Source of the DNA: Myxococcaceae bacterium
GTDB taxonomy: Bacteria > Myxococcota > UBA727 > JABDBI01
Direction of reading: 5' to 3'
Assembly: GCA_016000045.1 (NCBI GenBank)
Contig: JAECQY010000006.1
Coordinates: forward strand, 51,653 to 115,652
Length of the DNA stretch: 64,000 nucleotides
Shown here: positions 4,551-59,828 of the stretch, piece after piece
Layout of the letters: each line of letters begins with the position of its first letter
How positions within the stretch are numbered: the stretch's first letter is position 1
Program-made: the position numbers and the translations under genes
The notes under the pieces: generated by a model
What the model saw: the letters and a program-made list of their open reading frames with translations, nothing else
The model's database searches: none
Told to the model about the DNA's origin: nothing

Positions 4551-4758
4551 ATGGCTTCCAATAGCGATGCCTGTTTTCACGGAATTTTGTTGCAGTGATT
4601 GCTATGATTTGGGCAGGGCACGAATGCGTTTGTATGCAAATGAACAACGTACGTAGTATCGGTATCAAGTATGTGTCTGGCTTAGGGACGATTTGACTTT
4701 GGCATAACAAAGATCTAGCTACAGATTGTTTTCTACTGAGTCAAGTTTTGGTTCCTCG

Positions 4759-7700
4759 ATGAAATTTTTTGCCACTATGTTCGCCATTTTAATCGCATGG
4801 AAACCGGTTTCAGCGGAATCGTTCATTTACAGCAACGTAGAAAACTTGAAGGCTCGACAGCTATTTGGATTACTTATTTCCGACCAAGAGCCTGATCCAA
4901 ACCTAGGAGCGCAGGCAGCCGCAGCCGCCATGAGTGCTCTATTGGCTTACATGGCGCCGAGTATTAAAAATATGCCTGGTTACGCGGGTTATTTTGCGGG
5001 CAATTGCTCTGTATTTTTTGACAACAAAACCATTCGTCAAGTAGGTTGTGATATGACTCCTGTGGCGATTGTATTCGTGAATGAAACACAGCAATTCAAT
5101 TCGCCTGTTCGTTTGCCATATGAATATACGACTCAAATTACTCAAAGTCATATTTTATTGGCAAACTTATTGGGCGATTGGACGCGAACCATTGCTCAGA
5201 AGCAGGAGCAGTTTGAGATTCATTTGTTTGAAAAAGTTCAAACGTGTACGCTCTCGCAGAGCCCAACAGAAACAGGGCGATTGACGCTTTCCGATACCCT
5301 TATTCAAACGTTAAGCCCAAGTAAATCGCCTAATCAAACCCTGACAGCAAGCAAAAATATCTCCAATACGCACAGCCAAGCACCTTCTTTCACCCCATCT
5401 TGCTCAGGCAGCCTCACGGATGCCCTCAGCGTTTCACAAACATCGAGTGACAGTGATGGCGCAAGCCTAACTGAGAGTGAAACTAGCCTGAAAACAGCAA
5501 GTCGGTCTTTGTCGAAATCTCAAACAGTCTACCCTGTTTGTTTGATGAATCTCCACGCAGATTCATCGAGCCAAGCGGCTCGGTATCTCGTAGATCCAAC
5601 TTTCTCTGTGGTGAATGATCTGTGGACAGGGCTTCTCTGGGAAAGAGATGTTTCTAAAACTCCCATGATATGGACGGTTGCTGAAAGCTATTGTTCTTCA
5701 TTGTCAACAGCGGGTTACAGCGACTGGAGACTGCCATCGGTAACGGAGTTGCAATCTTTGGTCGACTATACGATTGGCAGCCCAGGTCCAGCTATTGATA
5801 GCACAACGTTCCCGAATACTTCCGCCAATCAAACCTGGACGTCTATCCGGGATGCAGGCAACAGTGGATACTACTGGGTCATTGATTTTCTGTTGGCTCA
5901 AATATCGTCCGATACGGGTGATAACTCGAAAGTAGCTCGATGTGTCCGAGGGGATTCCATCGTTTTGCTAAATCGGTATGTGGACGAAAATGGGTTATCT
6001 TTGAGCAATCAAAGCATGCAAGTTCGAGACGTTCTGACGGGTCTAATCTGGGAACGATCCTGGAATTCTGCATACGTCAATTGGAGTTCTTCAGGTGCTT
6101 TGGGCTCGGCTCAGGCATATTGCGAAACGCTTAAACTGGGTGCGTCCAATTGGCGAATGCCTACGGTGAAAGAGTTAACGAGTCTTATTAACTATGATTC
6201 GTATAGCCCAGCGATAAACTCCACCGCTTTTCCCGCTCCAGCATCGGATTTCTTCTGGACCTCAACTCCGTGCTCAGGTGCTGAAGGACAGGGCTGGATC
6301 GTGAGTTTCAGTCATCATGCTTTGGTGGAGTGTGAGCCAGTTGTTGGGAATACCAACCCTGTTTGGTGTGTGAGAGACTCTGTTTGGGCTTCTGAAGCTT
6401 ACGCGGATGCTACCCATCAAAGGGAGCGATATATCGTTGCTGGGAATGGGACCGAAGCCGTTGTGACGGATACGTTCACTGGGCTTATATGGGAACAAAG
6501 GTCTGCGACAACAGCGATGACTTGGGAAAACGCTTCGTCATATTGTGCTGGTTTGGTTAAGCACGGTCTAGGCTGCTGGAGATTACCGACCAATATCGAA
6601 CTGGTGTCATTGCTAAATTATGATGCGACATCGCGCATTAGTATCAATGAGGTGGTGTTTCCAGGGACTTCATCAAGCAATTTCTGGACGTCTGTTCCAA
6701 CAGAAAGCATTCCTGAAAACTCATGGTCTATTTACTTTGGATATTATGGCCTAGGATATGTGGGCTATGACAAGATAGCTGAAGCGAATGCTATCCGTTG
6801 CGTACGTGGGAGTAATAATCGTCCAGTCGATCGATATACTGACCAGAATGGAGGGGTATTATCCGCTCAGAGTATTCAAGTGAAAGATCAAAAAACAGGA
6901 TTGATTTGGCAAAGGGCTCAAAGCAGTTCTTCGCTTGAATGGAATTCATCGCAATCGATTGGGTCAGCTCAATCGTATTGTCAAAATCTAGCCATTGCAT
7001 CGCAAGGAGCTGGGTCTTGGAGATTGCCTAGTGTCAAAGAGCTTGCGACGTTAGTGGACTATGCTGTGAGTCTTCCAAGTGTTAATACAAGCATTTTTCC
7101 AGAAACTTCTTCATCGACGTATGCCGTTTCCTCTCAATGGGGTGCTGCAACCGGTCTCAGTTACTACGTTAATTTTGCTAATGGAATCGTTAATGGCCAC
7201 TATTACATAGGTTACTCAGACATCGTTCGTTGTATTTTTAATTCTTCTTCTGCCAACAACGGCATGTGGTCTCCACTTGCCTACGAAGACGCTACCCATC
7301 AAACAGCGCGTTACTATATTTCTGGCGCGAGTCCCAATGGCATCGTGACGGATGACTTCACTGGGCTTATGTGGGAGCAACAAGTATCCGGTTCGACCTA
7401 TTTTTGGAACGCTTCCGCACCTTCAGGTTCGGCTCAGGCTTATTGCGCGAACTTAGTGAAGGGCGGATATGCGGATTGGAGGTTGCCGACACTTCTCGAA
7501 CTTCAAACACTTCTGGACTATACTGTTTCAGGCAATGTTGCCATTGAGAGCACGGCATTCCCCGGAACTCCTGATAACTATTACTGGTCCTCAGAACCCT
7601 ATGTAGGTATTGATGATTCGGCTTGGTACATCAGTTTTGGTCCGTCTGTGTATTATCCTGGAAAGATCTGTAGTCAGGGCTACGGCAGTAGTTGTTCGAC

Positions 7701-8154
7701 AATTGGTGGAGGTAATATTCGCTGTGTTCGATCGAGTGTAAGCAAGCAAAGCACCTCAGAACGATATGTTGATGAGGCTGGTATGCTGCTTGTAAATGCC
7801 AGTGTTCAGGTCAAGGACTTGAGCACTGGACTAGTTTGGCAACGGATAGCCACTCAGATAAGGTATACTTGGACTTCTGGGAAAAGTTACTGCAATAATC
7901 TAACAATTGGGGGACAGGTGTGGCGTTTTCCAACAATTCGAGAGTTATCTACGATTCTCAATATTGATATTAGTCAACTTTCTGGCTTACCCATGATCGA
8001 TTCAGATGCTTTTCCTGAGACTCCAGCGGCTTGTACCTTCACGTCCACTCCGTTGCCACAGAACAGTGCGATAGTCTGGTATATTTTTTTCGGTAGTGGC
8101 CGCGCGCTTGCAGAAGCGGTTGATCCAAACTGCTACATCCGTTGCGTACGCTGA
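4759..8154 (+). CDS. Large exported protein with Ser/Thr-rich spacer and six Lcl_C (DUF1566) domains
   Basis: An 1131-residue exported protein. Residues 1-20 are a Sec signal peptide (MKFFATMFAILIAWKPVSA). Residues 20-175 are unrecognised, followed by a Ser/Thr-rich spacer (about 175-265) and six Lcl_C/DUF1566 domains. Each domain opens with TGLLWER, TGLIWEQ or a close variant (near residues 290, 427, 574, 713, 868, 1023) and contains a YC..L...G...WRLP..EL core and a closing RCVR. Odd and even domains differ, so the array is three copies of a two-domain unit. Lcl domains occur in surface and adhesion proteins, so a surface role is inferred. The ATG at 4759 gives the signal peptide; no clear ribosome site precedes it. 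The next gene is another exported or membrane protein. Confidence 0.85.
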   Translation: MKFFATMFAILIAWKPVSAESFIYSNVENLKARQLFGLLISDQEPDPNLGAQAAAAAMSALLAYMAPSIKNMPGYAGYFAGNCSVFFDNKTIRQVGCDMTPVAIVFVNETQQFNSPVRLPYEYTTQITQSHILLANLLGDWTRTIAQKQEQFEIHLFEKVQTCTLSQSPTETGRLTLSDTLIQTLSPSKSPNQTLTASKNISNTHSQAPSFTPSCSGSLTDALSVSQTSSDSDGASLTESETSLKTASRSLSKSQTVYPVCLMNLHADSSSQAARYLVDPTFSVVNDLWTGLLWERDVSKTPMIWTVAESYCSSLSTAGYSDWRLPSVTELQSLVDYTIGSPGPAIDSTTFPNTSANQTWTSIRDAGNSGYYWVIDFLLAQISSDTGDNSKVARCVRGDSIVLLNRYVDENGLSLSNQSMQVRDVLTGLIWERSWNSAYVNWSSSGALGSAQAYCETLKLGASNWRMPTVKELTSLINYDSYSPAINSTAFPAPASDFFWTSTPCSGAEGQGWIVSFSHHALVECEPVVGNTNPVWCVRDSVWASEAYADATHQRERYIVAGNGTEAVVTDTFTGLIWEQRSATTAMTWENASSYCAGLVKHGLGCWRLPTNIELVSLLNYDATSRISINEVVFPGTSSSNFWTSVPTESIPENSWSIYFGYYGLGYVGYDKIAEANAIRCVRGSNNRPVDRYTDQNGGVLSAQSIQVKDQKTGLIWQRAQSSSSLEWNSSQSIGSAQSYCQNLAIASQGAGSWRLPSVKELATLVDYAVSLPSVNTSIFPETSSSTYAVSSQWGAATGLSYYVNFANGIVNGHYYIGYSDIVRCIFNSSSANNGMWSPLAYEDATHQTARYYISGASPNGIVTDDFTGLMWEQQVSGSTYFWNASAPSGSAQAYCANLVKGGYADWRLPTLLELQTLLDYTVSGNVAIESTAFPGTPDNYYWSSEPYVGIDDSAWYISFGPSVYYPGKICSQGYGSSCSTIGGGNIRCVRSSVSKQSTSERYVDEAGMLLVNASVQVKDLSTGLVWQRIATQIRYTWTSGKSYCNNLTIGGQVWRFPTIRELSTILNIDISQLSGLPMIDSDAFPETPAACTFTSTPLPQNSAIVWYIFFGSGRALAEAVDPNCYIRCVR
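5560..8151 (+). repeat. Three tandem copies of a two-domain Lcl_C unit inside the large exported protein
   Basis: The C-terminal 860 residues of this protein are six diverged Lcl_C domains. Domains 1, 3 and 5 follow lead-ins such as ADATHQ.ERYIV and EDATHQTARYYI. Domains 2, 4 and 6 follow NRYVDENGLSL, DRYTDQNGGVL and ERYVDEAGMLL and then QVRD or QVKD. Spacing between the WER/WEQ/WQR motifs is roughly 137-155 residues. The alternation shows that a pair was duplicated as a block. Confidence 0.8.
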
Positions 8155-9782: not shown

Positions 9783-10721
9783 ATGAAAGAATTGTATCCC
9801 GAGATTGAGCCCTTCGATTCGTTTAGATTGCAAGTTTCGGAGCTTCATACACTTTACGTGGAGCAGGCAGGGAACCCGAATGGCAAGCCAATTGTTTTTT
9901 TGCACGGAGGACCCGGAGGGGGAATCGATGCTAAAAATCGGCGCTATTTTGACCCCAACAAATGGCGTGTGATTTTGTTTGATCAGCGCGGATGTGGTCA
10001 ATCCAAACCCTTCTCTTGCCTCGAGCAAAATACGACTTGGGACTTGGTTCAAGATATCGAGACGATTCGTACGAAATTGGGAATAGAACAGTGGACGGTA
10101 TTTGGAGGTTCTTGGGGGAGTACCCTTTCGTTGACCTATGCTTTGACCCACTCTGATCGTGTTCTCGGACTGATTTTGCGTGGGATCTTTTTGCTCAGGC
10201 GTTCTGAAATTCAATGGTTCTATCAATTTGGAGCCAGCGAATTGTTCCCAGACTATTGGGATGATTTTCTAAAGCCGATCCCGATCGAAGAACGGAGCAA
10301 TCTTCTTGAAGCGTATCACAGGCGTTTAAATAGCCCTGATGCGAATATCGTTGCGGAAGCGGCTCGTGCCTGGAGCCTCTGGGAAGGGCGGACGGCTAAG
10401 CTCATACCCGATTCCGATTTTGCGGCTCATTTTGGTGAAGATGAATTTTCAAACGCATTTGCACGCATCGAGAATCACTACTTCTCGCATCAAGGATTTT
10501 TCAAAGAAGATGGTTGGATTCTGAAAAATATGGATCGAATGGCGCATATTCCAGGAGTCATTGTGCAAGGTCGATACGATTTGTGCTGTCCCGTTCGAAG
10601 CGCTTATGATCTATCCAAAGCTTGGCCAAAGGCTCAGCTGATAATTGTGCCGGATGCAGGGCACTCTGCGAGTGAAGACGGAATTCGAGGAGCGTTGATC
10701 GATGCCACCGATCGTTTTTGA
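9783..10721 (+). CDS. pip: Prolyl aminopeptidase (proline iminopeptidase)
   Basis: Alpha/beta-hydrolase that removes N-terminal proline. The 312-residue sequence carries the family blocks FLHGGPGGG (oxyanion hole), FDQRGCGQSKPF, the nucleophile elbow GGSWGSTLSLTYA with Ser in GGSWGS, WSLWEG, and the late QGRYDLCCPV (Asp) and DAGHSASE (His) segments that complete the triad. Length is typical. No signal peptide, so it is probably cytosolic and recycles peptides, which would fit the peptide ABC transporter further along. It overlaps plsC by 20 bases. Confidence 0.93.
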   Translation: MKELYPEIEPFDSFRLQVSELHTLYVEQAGNPNGKPIVFLHGGPGGGIDAKNRRYFDPNKWRVILFDQRGCGQSKPFSCLEQNTTWDLVQDIETIRTKLGIEQWTVFGGSWGSTLSLTYALTHSDRVLGLILRGIFLLRRSEIQWFYQFGASELFPDYWDDFLKPIPIEERSNLLEAYHRRLNSPDANIVAEAARAWSLWEGRTAKLIPDSDFAAHFGEDEFSNAFARIENHYFSHQGFFKEDGWILKNMDRMAHIPGVIVQGRYDLCCPVRSAYDLSKAWPKAQLIIVPDAGHSASEDGIRGALIDATDRF

Positions 10722-11454
10722 ACCGCAAAGGTTCCGTGGCCTAAAGCCAAGTTATTGGTATGCTTTCAAGATGGCTTGGATAGCGTTGTCGGAGTCTTTT
10801 TATTGTGTGGCTGAATCAAAACTACGAAGCCTAAGTTTGCAGGAGTCTGAAAAACACGTTCGACGTTTTTCGGAACGCTTGCTGCAAGCGACTCATACTC
10901 GGCTGGAAGTCAATGGGCTGGAGCATATTCAGCCTAAGCAGTCCTATGTGCTGATGTCAAACCATGCATCTATGATGGATATCCCTGTGCTTCTTTGTGC
11001 GTTCCCGTCGATTCTTCGAATGGTCGCGAAGCAGATTCTGTTCCGAGTGCCTTTCTTAGGAGGCGCGATGTCGCAAGCGGGGTTTATCCCCATTGATCGA
11101 AAGAATCTCAAAATTGCGAAACAGCAGTTGGAGGAGGCTAAAACAAGGCTTCAAGAAGGAATCAGTGTTTGGATCGCGCCAGAGGGAACTCGGAGCATTT
11201 CAGGGGAGCTTTTGCCTTTTAAAAAAGGAGGCTTTCATGTCGCCTTGTCTCTTGGAACTCCGATCTTGCCGGTTTGGATCGAAGGAGCCGATAACGTGAT
11301 GCGAGCCGATTCGATCAGAGTGTGTCCGAGTCAAACTGTTCGGGTGACTTTTGGAGAGCCGATTTTGACTCAGGGTTTTGGCATCGAGAGGATCGACGAT
11401 CTGATCCGCGAAGTTCGAGGAAGTTTGGTTCGGCTTGCAGTTCGATTTGACTAG
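10702..11454 (+). CDS. plsC: 1-acyl-sn-glycerol-3-phosphate acyltransferase
   Basis: Converts lysophosphatidic acid to phosphatidic acid at the inner membrane. The 250-residue protein has acyltransferase motif I NHASMMD (H-x4-D catalytic pair), GFIPIDRKN (motif II), APEGTRS (motif III) and LPVWIEGADN (motif IV). The start codon lies inside the end of the prolyl aminopeptidase gene, so the two are co-transcribed and probably coupled, though they share no pathway. Family identity is secure; it could equally be a paralogous lysophospholipid acyltransferase. Confidence 0.93.
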   Translation: MPPIVFEPQRFRGLKPSYWYAFKMAWIALSESFYCVAESKLRSLSLQESEKHVRRFSERLLQATHTRLEVNGLEHIQPKQSYVLMSNHASMMDIPVLLCAFPSILRMVAKQILFRVPFLGGAMSQAGFIPIDRKNLKIAKQQLEEAKTRLQEGISVWIAPEGTRSISGELLPFKKGGFHVALSLGTPILPVWIEGADNVMRADSIRVCPSQTVRVTFGEPILTQGFGIERIDDLIREVRGSLVRLAVRFD

Positions 11455-11595: not shown

Positions 11596-11901
11596 TCAAA
11601 GAAGAGCCTCTAGTCCTTTCGCCGCAACTATGTTTAACAGTTTAAGTGCTGGTCCTGCAGGGTGCTTCTCACCCGTCTCCCATTTTTTCACAGTGGAAGC
11701 ACTCGCATTCAGATATTTTGCAAAAACAGGTTGGCTTAACTTTTCTTTAATTCGAATTTGCTTGATTTCAGTTGGACTCAAATCGCGAATAGCTGGTAAG
11801 CACATGACATCGAATGTGCGCATTGTTTTGGAGTCCACTAGGTCAATGTCATACAGACCCTTGACTGATTGATGAATTACCTCTGTGATTGTCATATTCA
11901 T
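11596..11901 (-). CDS. XRE-family antitoxin (NadS/HigA-like)
   Basis: A 101-residue protein with a C-terminal helix-turn-helix (IRIKEKLSQPVFAKYLNASA followed by STVKKWETGEKHPAGPALKL), the pattern of NadS/HigA2-type antitoxins that bind their own promoter and neutralise RelE/HigB toxins. The ATG at 11901 follows a good AGGTG ribosome site and overlaps the stop codon of the upstream toxin remnant by four bases (ATGA), the normal toxin-first layout. The antitoxin frame is intact while its toxin partner has lost its middle, so this gene may now be an orphan regulator. Confidence 0.85.
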   Translation of the reverse strand: MNMTITEVIHQSVKGLYDIDLVDSKTMRTFDVMCLPAIRDLSPTEIKQIRIKEKLSQPVFAKYLNASASTVKKWETGEKHPAGPALKLLNIVAAKGLEALL

Positions 11902-12429: not shown

Positions 12430-12576
12430 TCATTTATTCTTGCTCGCGGTGAGATCTCAAATGCGCAGTATCAAAAAGTTGCTGATGTATCCAAGGCCAC
12501 AGTGACTCGAGAGCTCCGTACAAGAGAGCCAAGCAAGCCTGGGACCATCGGCTTGACTAGATCATTCAACTATTAG
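12430..12576 (+). pseudogene. Remnant of a winged-helix C-terminal domain (Fic/AlbA-like protein tail)
   Basis: After a TGA the frame reads FILARGEISNAQYQKVADVS and KATVTRELRT before ending at a TAG. This matches the helix-turn-helix tail (often 'G.ISNxEYQxLxGVSxxTATRDL') of Fic-domain and Schlafen/AlbA-like proteins. Nothing upstream encodes the rest of such a protein, so it is a 5'-truncated fragment. The macin-like gene starts 16 bases after its stop, in the same frame. Confidence 0.5.
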
Positions 12577-12591
12577 AAGAGAGAGGTATTT

Positions 12592-12990
12592 TTGATTTCA
12601 AAGGAGCCTAAAATTAAAATCTGTGTTTTAATATTTTTAACAGTAAGCTTGCATGCGTCAGCTCTCGATCGAAATGAGCATTCAAAAATGATGCTGATCA
12701 ATGCTATTGCTGCAGGTGCTCTAGGAACGGTTTTCATGGTATCTGAGATGGTCAGTATGACCAAAGCCGATTGCTTTGAAGACTGGAGTCGTTGCACTGC
12801 TTGGAGCTCTGGTCTAGGAGGGTATCTTTGGCAGACATGCCCGCAAAGGTGTCATTGTCTCGGATATGATTCAGGATATTGTGCTGAAGTTCCTAATACT
12901 TGTTCATATCTTCCTGCTGGCTCCACAGTTTCCAGATGTCATTGTCATGGAACCAGAGTTGGGCAACAAGCTTCTTGGTGTGGATTTTAA
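12592..12990 (+). CDS. Secreted macin-like cysteine-rich antimicrobial peptide precursor
   Basis: A 132-residue precursor. Residues 1-25 form a signal peptide (KIKICVLIFLTVSLHASA), 26-59 a pro-region with a second hydrophobic stretch, and 60-132 a cysteine-rich domain beginning DCFEDWSRC at Cys61. That domain has ten cysteines with a CFEDWSRC start, LWQTC, QRCHC, GYC, NTC, SRCHC and a closing SWCGF. From memory this is the order and approximate spacing of leech theromacin, an animal macin that permeabilises bacteria. The TTG start at 12592 is supported by AGAGAGG five bases upstream; no ATG precedes the signal peptide. The stop directly abuts the next gene's ATG. Bacterial function (bacteriocin or host-directed peptide) is inferred. 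Confidence 0.82.
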   Translation: MISKEPKIKICVLIFLTVSLHASALDRNEHSKMMLINAIAAGALGTVFMVSEMVSMTKADCFEDWSRCTAWSSGLGGYLWQTCPQRCHCLGYDSGYCAEVPNTCSYLPAGSTVSRCHCHGTRVGQQASWCGF

Positions 12991-13227
12991 ATGAAAAAGT
13001 TTTTCTATTTTGTGCTCTTGGCTTTGATTGGGATCATACTTCTGCTAGTTGGAGAAAATATGAGCTATGTGGATCAATATGGAATGTTGGTTGACTATCC
13101 GATTCTTGTTTTAACTGGAGCATGTTTTTTGATTACTGGAACTGCAATTATTTTTTTTATGATTATTTTTAGGGTATTTACTTATGCAGTAAAAAAACAA
13201 AAACTTTATCTCAAAAAATTAGATTGA
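12991..13227 (+). CDS. Small two-segment membrane protein, candidate immunity protein
   Basis: A 78-residue protein with two hydrophobic helices (FFYFVLLALIGIILLLVG and YPILVLTGACFLITGTAI, extending into IIFFMIIF) and a Lys-rich cytosolic tail (YAVKKQKLYLKKLD). Its ATG follows immediately after the TAA of the macin-like gene, so the two are translated from one message. I do not recognise a family. Small polytopic proteins directly after a secreted peptide toxin are often immunity proteins, which is the working guess; a processing or export helper is an alternative. It converges on engB with a nine-base overlap. Confidence 0.65.
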   Translation: MKKFFYFVLLALIGIILLLVGENMSYVDQYGMLVDYPILVLTGACFLITGTAIIFFMIIFRVFTYAVKKQKLYLKKLD

Positions 13228-13854
13228 ATATAGATTCGGCTTACGGCCCGGGGCCATGAGCCCGTAAATCGTTTCGAGGATCTCAAAACGTCCTAAATTG
13301 GAATGAGCCGAAACAGTGAGGCAGTCATCGACTGAGATTTGGAGCGCTTGGCTAATTCTCAAACGAGCTTCTTTGCGTTTTGAGACCGGAATTTGGTCAA
13401 TTTTGGTCAAAACCGCTTGATACTGGTCAACGTGGCTGCGAAGTTGCCTACTGAGGCGGATATCTTCGGCTATGGGATCGCGTCGGCAGTCTAGCAAGTG
13501 AATCACCATTTTGAGAGGTTGCCGATCGTTCAGATAATCTGAGATTAAGTCCGAAAGTCGGCTTCGCTCTTCGAGCGAGAGTTGGGCGTATCCGAGCCCG
13601 GGCAGATCGAGAATTCGCAGCTCCAAATCTTTGAGCCTGGCTTCAAAAACATTTAAGGCCTGAGTTCTCCCTGGCGTCTTAGAAACTCGAGCCAAAGTTT
13701 TTTGGTTGGCAAGGTAGTTTAAGAAGGAAGATTTTCCTACATTCGAGCGTCCGACGACAGCCATCTCAGGAAGGCCGTCTTGAGGAAGTAAGGCAACCGA
13801 GGGTGCCGATAAAATAAAACGCGCTTTTTCAAGCTTAAGATCTTCCATAACCAT
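13219..13854 (-). CDS. engB: Ribosome biogenesis GTPase EngB/YsxC
   Basis: Essential GTPase for 50S subunit assembly. The 211-residue protein has G1 VVGRSNVGKSSFLN, the switch region with SKTPGRTQALN, G3 LDLPGLGYA, G4 LTKIDQIP and G5 TVSAHSNLG. The start is uncertain among closely spaced ATGs; I chose 13854, preceded by GGATGG, while 13848 or a TTG at 13869 are possible. The 5' end overlaps the end of the ccsA-like gene, so both belong to one minus-strand operon with resB. Confidence 0.94.
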   Translation of the reverse strand: MVMEDLKLEKARFILSAPSVALLPQDGLPEMAVVGRSNVGKSSFLNYLANQKTLARVSKTPGRTQALNVFEARLKDLELRILDLPGLGYAQLSLEERSRLSDLISDYLNDRQPLKMVIHLLDCRRDPIAEDIRLSRQLRSHVDQYQAVLTKIDQIPVSKRKEARLRISQALQISVDDCLTVSAHSNLGRFEILETIYGLMAPGRKPNLYSI

Positions 13855-15094
13855 GCAAACCATCCGCAAACCAACCCAGATTAACCCCTAGAAAGCCTGC
13901 CAGGATAACGAAAAATCCAAAAACAGCAATGACTGCTGAACGAGATTTCGACCAACCGTAGGCAATACGAGAGTGCAAGTAAAGTGCGTAGGTGATCCAA
14001 ATCACCAGAGCGCCTGTTTCCTTGGGGTCCCAACCCCAGTAGCGCCCCCATGCGTAGTGAGCCCAGAGTGCACCGGTCACCAAGACGATTGCCACCAACG
14101 CAAATGCGACCAGCACGTTTGAATAGGCAATGTGGTCAAGCTGCCGAACGCTGGGAAGCAAACGATCGAGATCCTTGGGAAACAGGAGTGATAGACCGAC
14201 AAAGCATTGTCCCAATGCCATGATCGCTAGTAAAGCCAAGTCCCAGACATGGATGGGTGAGTGGAGTGAAAGGAGCGCTAGAATCGTTAAAAGATCAGCC
14301 AGTGCTAGAAAATACGCGTATCGGGCCATTGATTTGTTCAGTAGAATTCCAGCCGATGCCAGGGCCAAGTAAGTGATCATCATCCAGCCAACTCCCGGCA
14401 CAGCGGTTTGTTCGACTTGATAAACTTGGGTGCTGAAGAGCGTGAAACCTCGTCCTAGGACCAAGATAACGGCCATACTTGTTCCTAAAACGCCTCGACG
14501 AAGTCTTGGTTCAGAGCCTGGATTCTGCGTTTTAACCAAATACAAAAAGCTTGCAATCGCTGCAACCGTCCCCGATGCGTAAGCGATGGAGGCGCTGATT
14601 ACGTGAATCATAATCCACCAACTTTTCAGAGCCGGTACTAAAGGCTTAATCGGGCCTGCGTAGAATGCTGCGATCCCCAGAGCCGTTAGGGCCAGCAATA
14701 AAGAAAAAATACCTAACAATGGTGAGCGCCATTGGATTTCGCAGACTAAAAAGACCAACACCAGTCCCCAGGCCATATAACCCATGATTTCATAAAGATT
14801 AGACCAGGGAGGATGCTGCGTGAGAACTTGCCAGTAGGCATAGCCCTCGAGAATTTCACCGGCTCCTTGGATGTAAGCTTCCACCTCGATGAGCCCTGCT
14901 TCAATCCAGCGAAAAGTCATTCCGAGAGTTTGAATCAAAAAACCCGATGCGACCACGGTCGTTGCGATTTGTCTGATCCGCTCCGATTTGATACCGAGAT
15001 TCAAAGCAAACTGAAAGAGCGCTGCGGCGTAAAAGAGCGCAGATAAATTATACAGAGCGATGCTGGTCAACAAAATGATTAAACTCCTTTTCAA
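13835..15094 (-). CDS. ccsA: Cytochrome c biogenesis protein CcsA/ResC type (heme handling)
   Basis: System II cytochrome c maturation: moves heme to the outer face of the inner membrane for attachment to apocytochromes. The 419-residue polytopic protein carries the tryptophan-rich heme motif YAWGRYWGWDPKET (WWD domain), followed by LVIWITYALYLHSRI, and an upstream HVISASIAYASG with the external heme-ligand His. Its N-terminus overlaps resB by 47 bases, and the two proteins act as a complex. The long N-terminal hydrophobic portion matches the CcsB/ResC form found in deltaproteobacteria. Respiration with c-type cytochromes is implied. Confidence 0.9.
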   Translation of the reverse strand: MKRSLIILLTSIALYNLSALFYAAALFQFALNLGIKSERIRQIATTVVASGFLIQTLGMTFRWIEAGLIEVEAYIQGAGEILEGYAYWQVLTQHPPWSNLYEIMGYMAWGLVLVFLVCEIQWRSPLLGIFSLLLALTALGIAAFYAGPIKPLVPALKSWWIMIHVISASIAYASGTVAAIASFLYLVKTQNPGSEPRLRRGVLGTSMAVILVLGRGFTLFSTQVYQVEQTAVPGVGWMMITYLALASAGILLNKSMARYAYFLALADLLTILALLSLHSPIHVWDLALLAIMALGQCFVGLSLLFPKDLDRLLPSVRQLDHIAYSNVLVAFALVAIVLVTGALWAHYAWGRYWGWDPKETGALVIWITYALYLHSRIAYGWSKSRSAVIAVFGFFVILAGFLGVNLGWFADGLHGYGRS

Positions 15095-51711: not shown

Positions 51712-51772
51712 GTAAAGCTAATTTTAATTTGGATTCGAATAACTAGCTCCTGGATTGTGTTATTTTTTCGAC

Positions 51773-53935
51773 ATGGGTAACTTGATAGACCTTCTGCTTC
51801 AGGGCAATCTTGGTGAGCTCTTTAAGCGCTACTCGGATATCTGTTTAGCATTTTTAGTCGTGACGGTCATGACCCTGCTCATTGTGCCTGTTCCAACTTT
51901 TCTCATCGATTTGCTCATCTGCACCAATATTTCTATTGCCTTAACCATGCTTTTGGTGGCTCTCTATGTTTCCGATGCGCTGCATTTGTCTTCGTTTCCA
52001 ACGATTTTGCTCGTAACAACTTTATTTCGTTTAGGGATTAACGTCGCAACCGCGCGACGCATTCTGCTCGATGCGGATGCAGGAACGGTGATTACGGCTT
52101 TTGGTGAGTTTACGGTGCAAGGGAACTTCATCGTGGGTGTCGTGATGTTTCTTTTATTGATGCTGATCAATATGCTGGTGATTGCCAAAGGCTCGGAACG
52201 TGTCGCAGAAGTGGCCGCACGATTCACCTTAGACGCTATGCCTGGCAAGCAAATGAGCATTGACGCGGATTTGCGAAACGGTTCGATTGATCTGGATACA
52301 GCGCGTAAAAAACGCATGGATCTGGGCCGAGAGAGTCAACTTTTCGGCGCCATGGACGGTGCCATGAAGTTTGTGAAAGGAGACGTTATTGCCGGGATTA
52401 TTATCTTCATTCTGAATATCGTCGCAGGCATGAGCGTTGGTGTCCTGCAAAAGGGCATGACGGTGAATGAAGCCATCGAAACCTACTCGATTCTTTCCAT
52501 TGGTGATGGACTGGTGAGCATTATACCCGCTTTGCTTATGTCGGTGTGCGCAGGCTTAATTGTGACACGCGTCAACTCTGGCGCCGAAGATTCCAATTTG
52601 GGTCAAGATATTGCGAATCAAGTTTTGGCTCAGCCCAAGGCCTTTGCCATTGCTTCTGCGTTTATTACCCTGGTTGGGCAAGTGCCCGGTTTGCCTCGTA
52701 TTCCGTTCACGATTATAGGGCTTACGGTCGGTGGGATTGCGTACGCGCTATTTCGTGCACAGCAGCCTTCTTACGCGGGGGCTGTGGGTGCATCCATGGC
52801 AGATATGGAGCAAATTGTCTCCAAACGGGAGCAAAAGCTTGAAAAAGAGAAGAAAACAGCTTTGCAAAAAGCGAAGGCGCAAGAAGGCAATACCGCCAAA
52901 ATGATGCCCGTTGTGACTCCCATTTCCCTGGAAGTCGCATCCGATCTGGTTCCGTTGGTCGATGACAGCTCAAACTTTTTGGCCGAGTTGATTCCCACGA
53001 TGCGGGATGGTTTGTTTTACGAGCTAGGGATTCGATTTCCTGGAATCCGGGTACGCGGGAGCGATGCTTCCAGTGGGCCGGGGACTTATGTGGTTGCTAT
53101 CAATGAGATCCCGGTAGCTGTGAATACGGTCGATTCCAGGATGTGCTTGGTCAATGATACACCCGATCGATTGAAACTGTTGGGAATCCAAGCAACGATA
53201 GCGGTGAACCCAGCTAATGGAGTGCCTTGTTCCTGGATGCCGAACGCTAAACAGGCATTGGCAGAACAGGCGGGTCTGACAACCTGGGACGCGGCGAGTT
53301 ACATGGTCCTTCACCTTTCAGCTTCACTTCGAAAGCAAGCCGCTGATTTCGTTGGCATCCAAGAAGTTCAAAATATGCTGGACCAATTGGAACAAGCTTT
53401 CCCGGCTTTGGTGAAAGAAGTCATCCCCAAGGCGGTGAATCTATTTCAATTAACAGAGATTTTGAAGCGCCTGGTGGAAGAAGAAATCTCCATTCGAGAT
53501 TTGAAAACCATCTTGCAGGCTTTGGCTGAATGGGGGCCTCACGAAAGCGATCCCGTACTCCTAACCGAGCAAGTAAGAATTTCGATGAAGCGTTATATGA
53601 GTCATAAGTTTACCGGAGGGCAACACACACTGGTTGTCTATCTGTTGGAGCCACAGCTGGAAGAAACGGTGAGTGCCGGAATTCAACATGGCTCTGCTGG
53701 AGGTTATTTGGCATTGGAACCCGAAGTCACAAACGATATCTTGACAGCCATTCGAAAAGAGATTTCAAATTTGCCTGCCACCGCGCAGCAACCCGTCATT
53801 TTGACTCCTCAAGAAATCCGGCGGTATTTTAGAAAATTGGTTGAGATTGAATTTCCGCATCTGGCGGTATTGAGTTATCAAGAATTGAGCTCGGATATCA
53901 ATATTCAACCGATTGCTCGGATTGGCCTGGGCTAG
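51773..53935 (+). CDS. sctV: Type III secretion export gate protein SctV (FHIPEP family)
   Basis: The central export-gate subunit, 720 residues. Residues 1-330 hold eight membrane helices with the FHIPEP signature: SFPTILLVTTLFRLGINVAT, ILLDADAGTVITAFGEFTVQ, AKGSERVAEVAARFTLDAMP and GKQMSIDADLRNGSIDLD. Residues 380-720 form the cytosolic ring domain that docks chaperones and ATPase. The 'DADAG' and 'AAFG.F.V' type segments fit injectisome SctV/HrcV better than flagellar FlhA ('HGHEG'). The ATG at 51773 lacks a ribosome site. No other secretion genes are adjacent, so the rest of the apparatus lies elsewhere. Confidence 0.88.
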   Translation: MGNLIDLLLQGNLGELFKRYSDICLAFLVVTVMTLLIVPVPTFLIDLLICTNISIALTMLLVALYVSDALHLSSFPTILLVTTLFRLGINVATARRILLDADAGTVITAFGEFTVQGNFIVGVVMFLLLMLINMLVIAKGSERVAEVAARFTLDAMPGKQMSIDADLRNGSIDLDTARKKRMDLGRESQLFGAMDGAMKFVKGDVIAGIIIFILNIVAGMSVGVLQKGMTVNEAIETYSILSIGDGLVSIIPALLMSVCAGLIVTRVNSGAEDSNLGQDIANQVLAQPKAFAIASAFITLVGQVPGLPRIPFTIIGLTVGGIAYALFRAQQPSYAGAVGASMADMEQIVSKREQKLEKEKKTALQKAKAQEGNTAKMMPVVTPISLEVASDLVPLVDDSSNFLAELIPTMRDGLFYELGIRFPGIRVRGSDASSGPGTYVVAINEIPVAVNTVDSRMCLVNDTPDRLKLLGIQATIAVNPANGVPCSWMPNAKQALAEQAGLTTWDAASYMVLHLSASLRKQAADFVGIQEVQNMLDQLEQAFPALVKEVIPKAVNLFQLTEILKRLVEEEISIRDLKTILQALAEWGPHESDPVLLTEQVRISMKRYMSHKFTGGQHTLVVYLLEPQLEETVSAGIQHGSAGGYLALEPEVTNDILTAIRKEISNLPATAQQPVILTPQEIRRYFRKLVEIEFPHLAVLSYQELSSDINIQPIARIGLG

Positions 53936-55135: not shown

Positions 55136-55574
55136 CTACTTAATATCTGGCTCGGGCTGCTCGAAACATAGTTCAAATTTCTCATCTGGATTGACCCAAC
55201 TCAAATTGAGAGGAAAATCAGTATTCATTTCAGGATAATGTGCCAAAAGCAGTACTTCGTCTTCTTCATCGCAGCTTGTGTAGTCTACTTGTTCTCGTTC
55301 GGCAGACGTTTTTATCTTATTTGTGTTCCAGATTATTCCTAGGGGATAATATTTTCCATCAGAATCTGCAAAAGCCACAACAGAGCCACAATCTCCAGGT
55401 GCTGAAAAACAAGTTCTATTGTTTGATTTGATATATATACTTTGAATTTCCTTGTCTTTGTCCCCAATTGGAACTTTACCTTTCTTTATTTCTGAATTGT
55501 TTAAAATAATTATGCCATCTGTTAATCCAGTTGAATGTCCAATTTTAAAAACACGATATTGCGTGTTTTTTTTT
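55136..55574 (-). pseudogene. Frame-shifted C-terminal continuation of the zinc-finger protease (trypsin-like core)
   Basis: Reading the minus strand one base out of frame from the A9 run gives KKNTQYRVFKIGHSTGLTDG, then FSAPGDCGSVVAFADSDG and a plausible C-terminus at 55136. VFKIGHSTGLTDG is the conserved strand of trypsin-like (S1-type) proteases ('VFKVGRTTGLT.G') and GDCGS stands in the place of the catalytic GDSGS, with TGT (Cys) for Ser. The upstream frame supplies the matching His and Asp. Either the gene is switched on by slippage or one A too many has inactivated it. Confidence 0.68.
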
Positions 55575-57266
55575 GATCAATTCTTCAAGTTTAGATAGAT
55601 AAATAAAACTTGAAAATGCAACTAAATTAAAAGATTCTGGAGAAGCTTTTAAAAACAATAAATCCACATCTTGATGTCCAAATACGGCTCGAGAGCCGAG
55701 TTCTTTTATGGACACTGTTTCATTTTTTGATAGGTTCCTTTCTTTGGCATGATAACCCGTCAAGGCCAACTTTTCATTTACACCTCTTGTTAAGATACCT
55801 CCAATTGTAGTGCCAAGGCCTTTGGAGATAAACTTAGAGCAAAAATCATTTCCTGCTGACTCGCAAGAAAAGCACGCACCTCGTCGAGTGGACGTTACAA
55901 AGTTCAAAGTAAAAAATTTCTCATACGGTTCAAATCTCCTCCGCAGAGCATCGGGTTCTCGAGTATTATGAGGGACATTGATAATTAATGTTTCCGAATC
56001 ATAGTTAAAGCTGCAGGGAACTACAGAGCCAAGCAATCGATCAAGCAATTTTTTCAGTTCTGGAGCCATTCTAGAACCCTGGTCGTAATCTTCGAAATCA
56101 CTAGGCCTAAAATTTGCTAAAGAATCAGGAGTTAGGTCTTCGCCAATCGAATCCATAGGCTCCAAGCAGGCTCGCATACATAATTCCCGGTGGGATTTCC
56201 AGGCCGCTTTTACAAGTTCTTGGATCTCTTTTTTAGTGACAGGAGAAATATTTTTAGTGTCTTTCGCAATAGGAGCAGCGAGTGAGTCCAAAAGCTCCTG
56301 CTTTGCCTGAGTACTGTTTAAGATTTTACGAAATATTGTACGATATCGACGTGGCCAGTATGGTTTTTTTTCAGAAAAATACATGATTTCTTTGAATTGA
56401 TTGGTTGCGGCATAGTGCTCTCTTGCTGATAAAGAAACATTGGCAACACCCCCAGCTTGACTGGACAAATGCTCGGATTTAGTGCCAAGAAGTCTTTCAG
56501 ACACATCATCATGTCCATGCTGATGTGTGTTATTCAAGCAACTGGCACAGACAGTTACACCACAGGTTTTGCAAGAATATTTCCACCGAGTTAGCCCAAA
56601 GCTTTTCTTGCAGGAATGGCAAGAAGTTGAAGACTCTCCAGATTTCGATTCAACAGATTCTTGAACGTCGTGCTTTTCATGGGAATCAGCAGGCTTTGGA
56701 GAACTTGGTAGCAGTCGTATGTCTGGTGGCGTATAAGGGGCAGAATTAGGGGATTGTTCAAGAACTTCCGGCCTAAAATCAGACAAGGGTCCATTCTCGT
56801 TTGCGATTTCTGAAAAAAGCTCTGGTTTTACAGGCGCTGTTTGAAGTTCATAAAGTTCAGCTTGCATTTCTTCTTCAGACTCTTCTCCAGTGGGATTAAA
56901 ACCAAATTGCCGTACCTTTTGAATTTTAGATTTGAGCTGTTTGATTTTCTCATCCCGTTCTCTTACAATTTGCTCATAAGATTTTTGACGATTAAATAAT
57001 TTGAATTTCCAATCTTGTTTTTCTATATCTTTTTTTATTTTCTCGGCATTTTTAAAACTATTCTGAATAAAGTATGAAATATCGGCCATAAATGAAGACG
57101 GCATTAAGCCCTGAGAAACGCCAAAAACACGGTTTTGATACGCGAAAAATTTGTTCGCCTCTTTCACTATTTGATGCATCGGGCTAGAGAGGCTCGCTGC
57201 TCTTTCTGCGTAACAAATAGATGAGGCTAAAAAGATTTGTGAAATAAAAAAAGACAACTTATTCAT
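55545..57266 (-). CDS. Exported coiled-coil, FYVE-like zinc-finger protein with interrupted trypsin-like domain
   Basis: 573 residues as encoded. Residues 1-20 are a signal peptide (MNKLSFFISQIFLASSICYA). A coiled coil follows (about 95-120), AELYELQ at 136-142 and IRLLPSSPK near 183-191, aligned with the 23.2 kb protein. Residues 216-252 hold a C-x2-C...C-x2-C-x4-C-x2-C cluster (Cys216, 219, 232, 235, 240, 243) with His248/250/252, which resembles a FYVE or related treble-clef finger, though the R(R/K)HHCR lipid-binding motif is absent (WKYSCKTCG). From about 485, TTIGGILTRGVNEKLALTGY with His506 and GHQDVDLLFLKA (Asp533 or 535) match the first two residues of a trypsin triad. The ATG at 57266 follows GGAG. 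Frame ends at the A9 run. Confidence 0.72.
   Translation of the reverse strand: MNKLSFFISQIFLASSICYAERAASLSSPMHQIVKEANKFFAYQNRVFGVSQGLMPSSFMADISYFIQNSFKNAEKIKKDIEKQDWKFKLFNRQKSYEQIVRERDEKIKQLKSKIQKVRQFGFNPTGEESEEEMQAELYELQTAPVKPELFSEIANENGPLSDFRPEVLEQSPNSAPYTPPDIRLLPSSPKPADSHEKHDVQESVESKSGESSTSCHSCKKSFGLTRWKYSCKTCGVTVCASCLNNTHQHGHDDVSERLLGTKSEHLSSQAGGVANVSLSAREHYAATNQFKEIMYFSEKKPYWPRRYRTIFRKILNSTQAKQELLDSLAAPIAKDTKNISPVTKKEIQELVKAAWKSHRELCMRACLEPMDSIGEDLTPDSLANFRPSDFEDYDQGSRMAPELKKLLDRLLGSVVPCSFNYDSETLIINVPHNTREPDALRRRFEPYEKFFTLNFVTSTRRGACFSCESAGNDFCSKFISKGLGTTIGGILTRGVNEKLALTGYHAKERNLSKNETVSIKELGSRAVFGHQDVDLLFLKASPESFNLVAFSSFIYLSKLEELIKKKHAISCF
55566..55574 (-). repeat. Nine-A homopolymer that decides the frame of the protease
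   Basis: The coding strand has ATC, nine A, then CACGC. With nine A the protein stops nine codons later; with eight A the frame runs through the protease active site. Such runs are typical sites of slipped-strand variation, transcriptional slippage or sequencing error. Confidence 0.7.
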
Positions 57267-57565
57267 AGCAGCTCCAGTTCGTTTGTCGTTATTTGATCTG
57301 AACGGTACTCCTACAACAGTTTTTGCGCAACAGTTTACTTTCTCCTCGAAATTCACTACCGATAAGGGGCTGGCAGGAGTCCAAGTAATTTCTTGATGAA
57401 GGTCTTGTTTTTGAGCTTGTCTGATTAAATCAACGGCTCCGACCAGGCCTGCTGCATAGTCATATGGCTTCGATCAACAACCCGCTTCAGACCGTGATTG
57501 CAAATCTGAGCGATCGGCTTTAGTCGTGTAGCCTGAATCATTTTGTGGAACTATTTGGAGTCGCT
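57267..57565. other. Divergent intergenic region of the effector island, with an unassigned open stretch
   Basis: About 300 bases between divergent starts. On the minus strand an open stretch continues upstream of the protease start to about 57475 (reading PYDYAAGLVGAVDLIRQAQK) and may be the end of a lost gene. I could not identify a family. Promoters of both genes must be here, but none is convincing. Confidence 0.4.
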
Positions 57566-59716
57566 ATGAATGGAGTTGCAGGTTTCTCAACCCGAACTGC
57601 TTGTTGTTTTCTTTTATGTTTTTTTTCGTTTTGTTTACTAGCGATGACAAATGATTCAGGCGGTGATTTCGTAGAAGAACAACCTAAACAAAATGCCACT
57701 CAACTGCCTGGCAATACGAACGCTGCTTGGTTGCCCGTATCCGTGCCATGGCAGAGAGCCCCCCACGTTTCGCTACCCATCTTTCCTCTGTTATCGGCGC
57801 TATCTTTTCTCGATTGGCCACAATTAGTGGACAACTCTTTACAGGAATTTCTTCGTCGTTTATCGCGTTGGCGTCCTCGGACAGTTAATAACAGGCTGGA
57901 GACACCACGCCATAGGCTTGCATGGACTCGAGACGTGCGAGAAGGTCGTGCTGGGGCCGGAGGCTTAACAACGACGGAAGTACGAGAAAGCTATCAAGGG
58001 CCATTTTCTCCAAACCAGTTCCGCACGAGTCGACAGGGGACCTATTTTCGGGATGATGTTGGCTGGAATCGCATCGAAGAGAGGACGATCTGTGATACAG
58101 GTAGCGGGTTGATTTATCGACGAGTATTGCAGCAACATTCGAACGAATTTGCGTTTCAGGCAGCAGCGCCGCGCTTGTATCTTAACGACCAGGGTAGCCG
58201 ATCCGAAGATACGGTTCCATACGCCGACTTAGTGGGATCAATCTTGGCTACTGACAACCGGGCATTCGCGACGAATATACTCAGGGTGCTCAAGAACTCA
58301 GAGAAGCCGCTGCAAGGGAATACCGTAGAGGCTGCAAGAAAGGTTGCTCAGCGAATACTCGTATCAGAACGGCCTCAATCGGAGGCCGCGTTGGCTTTGG
58401 CCTATACCGAAGTTTATAGACTGAAACACAGTGGATACGACTCAGCAATGGACGTTTTTGGAAGGGGCGGAAGCTATATTCCGGCACGTACAGGAGCCCA
58501 AGAACGGAGCCAAGATTACACACTGGAGCAAGTCAAATATTCGTTTGATGTAATCGCAAGATTTAAAGCCGAAAAAAATCATCTGAAAAATGAAGACTCG
58601 GTTGTGAAGAAGCTGCGAAAGCTAGTCACCATTTTCGGATACGATATGAGACAGGAAATTATCAACAGACCTCTGTTCGGAGAATGTTTTTCAGAGGCTC
58701 GGGCTTCACGTTGTACACCGGAATTACCCGGGCATCGCGCGATCTCAGTTTCTGGAGAAGGCAATGCCTGTCTTTTGCGCTCGGTGTTGATCGGTGTTTT
58801 TCCAGAGCAAAGACAGCGGATAGCGAATTTGCCCAGCAGCGAGATTCGGAAGCAAGTTCGGGAGGCAATCAATGCCAGCCTTGCAGATCCAGAGACAGGC
58901 CGTTTGTTATTTCAAGATTATGAGGACTACCTCGATTTATTTGGTCGGCAATCGCTGTCTGACAGCATGACACACGAGTCTTACTTAAATCACTTTGTCA
59001 GTCGTGAAACGTTTGAAGGGCGAGAAATGATTGCTCTCTTGGCGCATGTGTATCAGCGAAGGATTTACGTTCATAATCAAGACCGGTATCTCGAAGAACA
59101 ATTTGGTGACTCCAGGCATGAGCCCCTGCATTTGCATTTCACCGCGTATCTTGGAACAGAGCCATTTCCCAATCACTACGATGCGTATGTTCCTGTTCGG
59201 TTCATTAGCGAGCTGGAAACTTACGCTGAACGAACACTGTCCAGCGTTACCGCGGTGGCAGGTCGAAGGTTGGATTCAACAAACACAGAAGTTTTAAGCG
59301 CTAGAGCCTTTGAAATCATTAGTTCGTTAGAAACCAATTTTGAGATCTCTCAAGAATCAAGAGAAGCGTTACTGGTTGAATTGGAAAATATTTTGCGGTC
59401 TCCCTTCATCAGCGAGGCCTTTAAGCAGTTTCTTAGGCAAAAGCTGCAGAAGTTGATGTTGAGGCAATCGTTGCAGCATAGTTCTAGAAATTGGAATGAT
59501 GATTCAGAACCTCCACCTGCTGCAGGAGGATCAAGTATTTTATTGGCAAGGAGTCTCAGAAACAGGAGGGAGTTACCGTTCGCTGCAACAACGAGTTCTG
59601 CTACTCAACAGACTTCTTTGCAAGTGAGCGCAGGCGAACAGCAACGGATGGACGCGAGTATTCCTCTTTCGATTCCTCTAAGAGCGAGCCCGCTTTTATC
59701 AGCAGCTAGTAGCTAA
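57566..59716 (+). CDS. Exported OTU-like cysteine protease, copy 1 (candidate deubiquitinase effector)
   Basis: A 716-residue exported protein. Signal peptide: MNGVAGFSTRTACCFLLCFF with CLLA before the mature start. Residues 40-390 are an unrecognised, conserved N-terminal part. Residues 390-545 form an OTU-type protease: SGEGNACLLRSVLIGVFPEQ with Cys402, ESYLNHFVSRETFEGREMIA, LLAHVYQRRIYVHNQD, and PNHYDAYVPV with His537. The order of Cys, aromatic/acidic patch and HYDAY matches OTU enzymes that cut ubiquitin chains, although the usual D-G-x-C reads E-G-N-A-C. The tail is helical then low-complexity. GGAG precedes the ATG. A close paralogue follows. Ubiquitin is absent from bacteria, so a host target is inferred. 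Confidence 0.78.
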   Translation: MNGVAGFSTRTACCFLLCFFSFCLLAMTNDSGGDFVEEQPKQNATQLPGNTNAAWLPVSVPWQRAPHVSLPIFPLLSALSFLDWPQLVDNSLQEFLRRLSRWRPRTVNNRLETPRHRLAWTRDVREGRAGAGGLTTTEVRESYQGPFSPNQFRTSRQGTYFRDDVGWNRIEERTICDTGSGLIYRRVLQQHSNEFAFQAAAPRLYLNDQGSRSEDTVPYADLVGSILATDNRAFATNILRVLKNSEKPLQGNTVEAARKVAQRILVSERPQSEAALALAYTEVYRLKHSGYDSAMDVFGRGGSYIPARTGAQERSQDYTLEQVKYSFDVIARFKAEKNHLKNEDSVVKKLRKLVTIFGYDMRQEIINRPLFGECFSEARASRCTPELPGHRAISVSGEGNACLLRSVLIGVFPEQRQRIANLPSSEIRKQVREAINASLADPETGRLLFQDYEDYLDLFGRQSLSDSMTHESYLNHFVSRETFEGREMIALLAHVYQRRIYVHNQDRYLEEQFGDSRHEPLHLHFTAYLGTEPFPNHYDAYVPVRFISELETYAERTLSSVTAVAGRRLDSTNTEVLSARAFEIISSLETNFEISQESREALLVELENILRSPFISEAFKQFLRQKLQKLMLRQSLQHSSRNWNDDSEPPPAAGGSSILLARSLRNRRELPFAATTSSATQQTSLQVSAGEQQRMDASIPLSIPLRASPLLSAASS

Positions 59717-59828
59717 GCTTCGTAGGCATCAGAACTTGCTTGAATTGAAGAACCATGATTAAAAATGGGGCAGATAGGTTTTACTTTTGTACCTTGGATA
59801 TTGGTTTTGAAACTGTTTGGAGTTTGCT

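Follow-up and report, generated by a model that had tools for sequence, protein, structure and literature searches.

A macin-type peptide gene of probable animal origin in a bacterial genome, with an abutting gene for a small membrane protein

The macin gene and its surroundings

The window analysed here, a stretch of 64,000 nucleotides, is part of a bacterial contig of 115,652 bases, which belongs to a genome of 1.32 Mb (99.6% complete, a draft of 11 contigs). Within it, the open reading frame at 12592-12990 almost certainly encodes a macin, and its stop codon is followed directly by the gene for a small membrane protein. The features of the locus are:

10702..11454, forward strand: acyltransferase gene, bacterial flank (Pfam Acyltransferase)
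11596..11901, reverse strand: HTH protein of antitoxin/repressor type, possibly mobile-element debris (HTH_3, phrog_2104, MqsA/NadS-type matches below cut-off)
12579..12586, forward strand: GAGAGAGG, possible ribosome site for the TTG at 12592, with a 5-nt spacer (from the sequence)
12592..12990, forward strand: macin precursor gene, 132 aa, TTG start, a single uninterrupted frame in the ORF list
12592..12663, forward strand: predicted Sec signal peptide, residues 1-24, ending A-S-A (hydropathy and reading of the sequence)
12600..12606, forward strand: AAAGGAG, resembling a ribosome site, 6 nt before an in-frame ATT at 12613 as a possible alternative start (from the sequence)
12688..12759, forward strand: second hydrophobic segment, residues 33-56 (hydropathy; the database form P0001 starts there)
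12772..12987, forward strand: ten-cysteine macin domain, residues 61-132 (cysteine count and spacing; alignment to other macins)
12991..13227, forward strand: 78-aa membrane protein with two hydrophobic segments, candidate immunity protein
13219..13869, reverse strand: GTPase (MMR_HSR1), presumably of YsxC/EngB type, bacterial flank, adjoining ccsA-resB-mraY also in the relative G004

The macin domain starts with CFEDWSRC, ends with SWCGF and contains ten cysteines with the spacing 6-14-3-1-7-6-11-1-11; from Cys61 to the last residue it is 72 amino acids long, one fewer than the 73 of the initial annotation, which had the cysteine count right. The only Pfam family found in the frame is Macin PF14865, which scores 38 bits (cut-off 27; E 2.5e-9) over positions 2-59 of 60. 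Among solved structures, only hydramacin-1 from Hydra (PDB 2k35, E 1e-10, the best match) and theromacin from the leech (PDB 2ln8, E 3.5e-6) match significantly in sequence, and a four-sequence profile finds both with E-values of 4.9e-18 and 3.9e-10, respectively. A profile of 24 macins that leaves out the window gene, made up of 23 animal-named sequences and P0017 (EukProt, without an animal name), scores the window domain at 80.8 bits, while the best of 1000 shuffles with fixed cysteines reaches 22.3 bits; the likeness to macins is thus not an accident of cysteine count. The macin-like domain of the initial annotation is borne out by all three kinds of match, the profile check having been set beforehand.

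Two further likenesses to leech theromacin had been proposed and also hold: the eight letters CFEDWSRC are identical in theromacin 2ln8, and each of the ten cysteines is aligned in order with a cysteine of Hirudo theromacin, gaps falling in loops. A third, a theromacin-like C-terminal end, is contradicted by the sequence of Hirudo theromacin, which ends in CWA; the SWCGF end is present in macins of mussels, Tigriopus and Allacma and in unnamed environmental sequences. The ten-cysteine macins of mussels, copepods and springtails share both Pfam family and cysteine order with the window macin. Macin disulfides are described, in the accessible text of PMC5116183, as including C1-C7 and, in ten-cysteine members, C5-C10, and the window domain has cysteines at the positions of both pairs. 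The macin fold is a cysteine-stabilised alpha-beta fold with an additional helix at the N-terminus. For the window macin, structure prediction yielded a model of moderate quality that matches defensin-type folds weakly; neither hydramacin nor theromacin is among the six structure matches listed, a weak comparison that is not to be read as absence. The macin has no family in NCBIfam, PHROG or PADLOC.

The N-terminus of the precursor, MISKEPKIKICVLIFLTVSLHASA, reads as a Sec signal, both by hydropathy and by eye. Between this signal and the macin domain lies the second hydrophobic segment, possibly an old animal signal peptide, an anchor or a pro-region, and the database form P0001 (100 aa) starts at the internal ATG 12688. 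With two hydrophobic segments, the export topology is uncertain. A second segment that spanned the membrane after cleavage of the first would leave the macin inside the cell, which is unlikely for a domain with ten cysteines, so that either this segment would be translocated or the inner start would be used. Proteins of the DsbA family, with two matches in the genome (the family occurs also in 8 of 14 control genomes), could make the disulfides. Promoter and terminator scans around the gene gave nothing above shuffles, and the short repeats there look like chance.

The 78-aa protein belongs to no Pfam family over the cut-off, its match to DUF3955 (21.2 bits) falling just below the cut-off of 22, and no family is listed for it in NCBIfam or PADLOC; plasmids gave no match. 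Of 58 genomes searched, its own alone has a full-length copy, and the other 57 gave two matches, both weak and partial (E 0.0013 and 0.008). The protein has no known immunity relative.

The neighbours of the macin gene are common bacterial genes, namely those for an acyltransferase, the YsxC-type GTPase, a cytochrome c assembly protein, ResB and a MraY-type transferase. The order ysxC, ccsA, resB, mraY is kept in the relative G004, the only one of six compared loci to reach this block; in the other five, only mraY and murD are matched. The macin, the 78-aa frame and the upstream HTH gene are without a match in all six. The macin pair thus lies at the edge of a conserved block, as judged from the single genome G004. 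Just upstream of the macin gene, a broken piece at about 12435-12530 (forward strand) appears to resemble the winged-helix end of a Fic-type protein.

Distribution and origin of the macin gene

With the macin sequence alone as query, 5.8 billion proteins yielded nothing beyond the macin protein itself, and alignment-based searches returned 12 and then 41 macin relatives. Twenty of the 41 carry the name of an organism, all of them animals, another 20 carry no such name, and one is the window sequence. Molluscs are represented by the mussels Sinanodonta, Potamilus and Sinohyriopsis, the abalone Haliotis and the snail Bulinus; the other named relatives come from the copepods Tigriopus and Apocyclops, the springtail Allacma, the rotifer Adineta, the corals Montipora and Orbicella and the leech Helobdella.

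Amongst 195 genomes of the phylum, a macin over the cut-off occurs in one, that of the window. Sub-cut-off matches to PF14865 in relatives (10 of 97 besides this genome, E <= 0.1) were rejected as chance, since at E <= 0.001 the window's own genome stands alone amongst the 195, and a second match in that genome (13.2 bits, below the cut-off) was likewise treated as chance. Scanning the GTDB r220 contigs with alignment patterns gave 78 stretches, none confirmed as a macin relative; the two patterns used do not cover some variants, CWDDWSRC for example, and the window's own genome may be absent from that collection. Three scans of IMG/VR gave 5, 43 and 92 pattern stretches with no confirmed relative, and phage and plasmid collections gave no macin match. 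A viral or phage carrier was rejected on these results.

In phylogenetic trees built from 70 columns, the window macin falls into a clade of seven rows together with two springtail and four unnamed environmental macins, with support of 99/91 in the 40-row tree and 98/91 in the 38-row tree. The cysteine spacing 6-14-3-1-7-6-11-1 is found in 7 of 45 macins, and these are exactly the members of the clade. By AU tests on the same 70 columns, removal of the window gene from the clade is not rejected (p 0.20), nor is its union with the leech macins (p 0.11); its pairing with Hydra alone is rejected (p 7e-5). The window gene branches within animal sequences and is missing from its bacterial relatives, the pattern of an animal-to-bacterium transfer. 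The trees and the shared cysteine spacing make a transfer from an arthropod-like animal likely; taken with the AU results, they give good support to an animal origin but not to any precise donor. An animal origin is accordingly considered highly probable and an arthropod-like donor likely. The possible acquisition from a host animal in the initial annotation is favoured by taxon distribution and trees, and the candidate donors move from leeches to arthropod-like animals.

It is improbable that the environmental members of the clade (P0006 and P0013-P0015) are all bacterial, macins having passed between bacteria for a time and the window gene having come from another bacterium. These four are the closest relatives of the window macin and lie on unnamed contigs of 645-1152 bases; however, they have a springtail-type cysteine layout and, as read by eye, a short eukaryote-like signal peptide, and no relative is confirmed in GTDB (whose patterns miss some variants) or in the viral, phage and plasmid collections. 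Much less credible is descent from a myxobacterial ancestor of defensin-type peptides. Such an origin of defensins has been proposed, in the accessible text of PMC5116183, from AdDLP of Anaeromyxobacter, a cysteine-stabilised myxobacterial peptide, and Myxococcota is also the probable lineage of the bacterium studied here. AdDLP, however, as described there, has four cysteines rather than ten and stands as a proposed defensin ancestor, not as an animal-derived gene, and the window sequence is nested inside the animal macins with a cysteine spacing common to only 6 of the 44 others. Cysteine number, tree and the single occurrence in the phylum led to the rejection of this ancestry.

At third codon positions the macin gene has a GC content of 0.31; the 23 other frames of the window, the 78-aa frame apart, range from 0.32 to 0.52, 22 of them within 38-52%. 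The 78-aa gene has 29% GC overall, and the low values of both genes fit DNA that has come in from elsewhere. In codon index the macin gene (0.81) differs little from the 23 other frames (0.75-0.80). That a piece of DNA from a host animal became attached to the bacterial contig in assembly, as the low GC and the draft state of the genome might suggest, is hardly believable in view of the GTPase gene about 230 bp downstream, the HTH and acyltransferase genes about 0.7 kb and 1.1 kb upstream, the uninterrupted frame, the ribosome-site-like sequences before its starts and the abutting next gene; the 90%-identity cluster of the protein moreover has two members on two contigs, the second possibly not an independent assembly. 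Misassembly was therefore judged unlikely, in keeping with the bacterial setting and unlikely contamination noted at the outset.

The host bacterium

The closest named records to the MraY of the window are from a Myxococcales MAG (68%) and a Deltaproteobacteria MAG (62%), and in a tree of 28 rows the window sequence groups with both MAGs and four family genomes (SH-aLRT 100). The label Myxococcota, taken from record titles, is scattered in this tree (10 rows, 5 changes), and for this reason Myxococcota is given here as the probable host lineage. Genomes of the family span 0.3 to 1.8 Mb. Two of them, G003 and G005, have sizes of 0.3 Mb (a single contig, 87% complete) and 0.5 Mb, an extreme degree of genome reduction in what is probably a lineage of Myxococcota.

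Two genes in the window bear on lifestyle:

51755..53935, forward strand: type III secretion export gate SctV (TIGR01399 equivalog, 764 bits against a cut-off of 692)
55545..57356, reverse strand: 603-aa protein with a FYVE zinc finger, a eukaryote-type domain (PF01363, E 1.4e-7, 32 bits against a cut-off of 27.8)

FYVE domains in eukaryotes bind PI3P on endosomes. The genome also contains an export-apparatus subunit (PF01313) and a full-length ATP/ADP translocase (621 bits), a family present in 7 of 8 family genomes and in none of 14 controls, while flagellin is found in none of the 8. Ankyrin repeats occur in 6 of the 8, including the window's own genome, but also in 5 of the 14 controls; U-box proteins occur in 2 of the 8, not in its own genome, and in none of the controls. 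Taken together, these markers suggest that the bacterium lives within eukaryotic cells. None of them is proof by itself, since ATP/ADP translocases have also been found in free-living bacteria, according to the accessible text of PMC5381601. A host-associated lifestyle is likely, given the ATP/ADP translocase, SctV and FYVE. In the literature on intracellular Myxococcota, the accessible part contains no group recognised as this lineage.

Several other proteins of the window and of its relatives were recorded. In the relatives G001 and G004 there are genes for a RING-H2 protein (L095:3923-4885) and a U-box protein (L096:7617-8591), both eukaryote-type ubiquitin ligase domains. Tandem genes at 57545-59716 and 59817-61985 (forward strand) encode proteins of 723 and 722 aa, 67% identical and, by eye, apparently secreted; they have a weak match to OTU-type cysteine proteases (E 0.0037, below the cut-off) and are possible eukaryote-directed deubiquitinases. 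A 1142-aa protein at 4726-8154 (forward strand) combines six Lcl_C domains with a serine/threonine-rich stretch, and a 622-aa frame at 62100-63968 (reverse strand) is rich in Ser, Thr and Asn, has an unusual GC content of 0.55 at second codon positions and belongs to no family over the cut-off; by eye, its S/T-rich start resembles a part of the Lcl_C protein.

Possible functions of the macin and its neighbour

Compared with theromacin and the other animal ten-cysteine macins, the window macin differs in being bacterial, in its bacterial-type signal with a second hydrophobic segment, in the abutting membrane gene and in its net charge of 0; hydramacin-1 differs from it in having eight cysteines and a charge of +7. 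The domain contains no lysine and three histidines, which might charge the peptide at acid pH. Net positive charge is found in 40 of the 45 macins examined, four of the 45 rows holding extra downstream residues, and low charge recurs in P0013, P0034, P0035 (-1) and P0038 (0). In the accessible text of PMC6780910, macins are cationic peptides that exert their effect by means of a positively charged belt, and animal macins aggregate bacteria before permeabilising them. The window macin lacks the net positive charge of the cationic antimicrobial macins, which weakens a plain reading as a membrane-lysing antimicrobial peptide; the family, however, as the four other low-charge members indicate, does not require positive charge, so a net charge of 0 need not mean lost activity.

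The reading favoured here, to which we give a probability of about 0.45, is that of a secreted weapon with self-immunity. The macin gene would have been acquired from an arthropod-like animal host, its precursor would be exported by Sec and folded by DsbA-like proteins of the cell, the peptide would act on rival microbes, and the 78-aa membrane protein would shield the producer. Weapon and immunity are favoured because the membrane gene abuts the macin gene, both genes are foreign in composition and both are missing from relatives; the 78-aa protein would be the likely self-immunity factor.

In colicin V, too, a peptide gene adjoins the gene for a small membrane immunity protein. The likeness is one of gene arrangement, and the secretion system of colicin V is different. 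Actifensins and laterosporulins are defensin-like bacteriocins (PMC6989792, accessible text) and resemble the window macin as cysteine-rich defensin-type peptides made by bacteria; actifensin, unlike it, has six cysteines, is not a macin and, in the same text, is encoded in an operon with ABC transporter genes. A wider and more tentative proposal is that an intracellular, ATP-importing bacterium has combined a captured arthropod macin, an immune peptide of its own animal host, with a bacterial export signal and a protective membrane protein into a two-gene bacteriocin-immunity cassette that would defend its niche in the host.

The main rival to a weapon is a mimic aimed at the host. The bacterium would secrete a version of a host macin without net charge, which would either occupy the targets or partners of host macins as a decoy or signal growth or repair, and would kill no bacteria. 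We consider this unlikely, though several observations are in its favour. The window macin has lost charge and lysine yet keeps the cysteine scaffold and the W-S-R-C core, the bacterium shows signs of host association (a T3SS gene, FYVE, the ATP/ADP translocase), and nerve repair and proliferation are further activities of leech macins (PMC6780910, accessible text). The low charge, however, is shared with P0013, P0034, P0035 and P0038 and so is not special to the bacterium, and immunity accounts more readily for the abutting membrane gene. It also counts against a mimic that we know of no receptor for one. A weapon with its own immunity protein therefore remains the preferred reading.

No report of a bacterial macin was found in the accessible literature, which leaves out most subscription papers and so is no proof of absence; a survey of springtail antimicrobial peptides (PMC10051947) makes no mention of macin, theromacin or Allacma in its accessible text. 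With family genomes down to 0.3 Mb, the lineage seems to be a branch of host-dependent bacteria that has been little described. Known gene transfers between bacteria and animals run mostly from bacteria to animals, and an immune effector of animals in a bacterium would be one of the few transfers in the reverse direction. It would make testable whether bacteria arm or disguise themselves with the antimicrobial peptides of their hosts.
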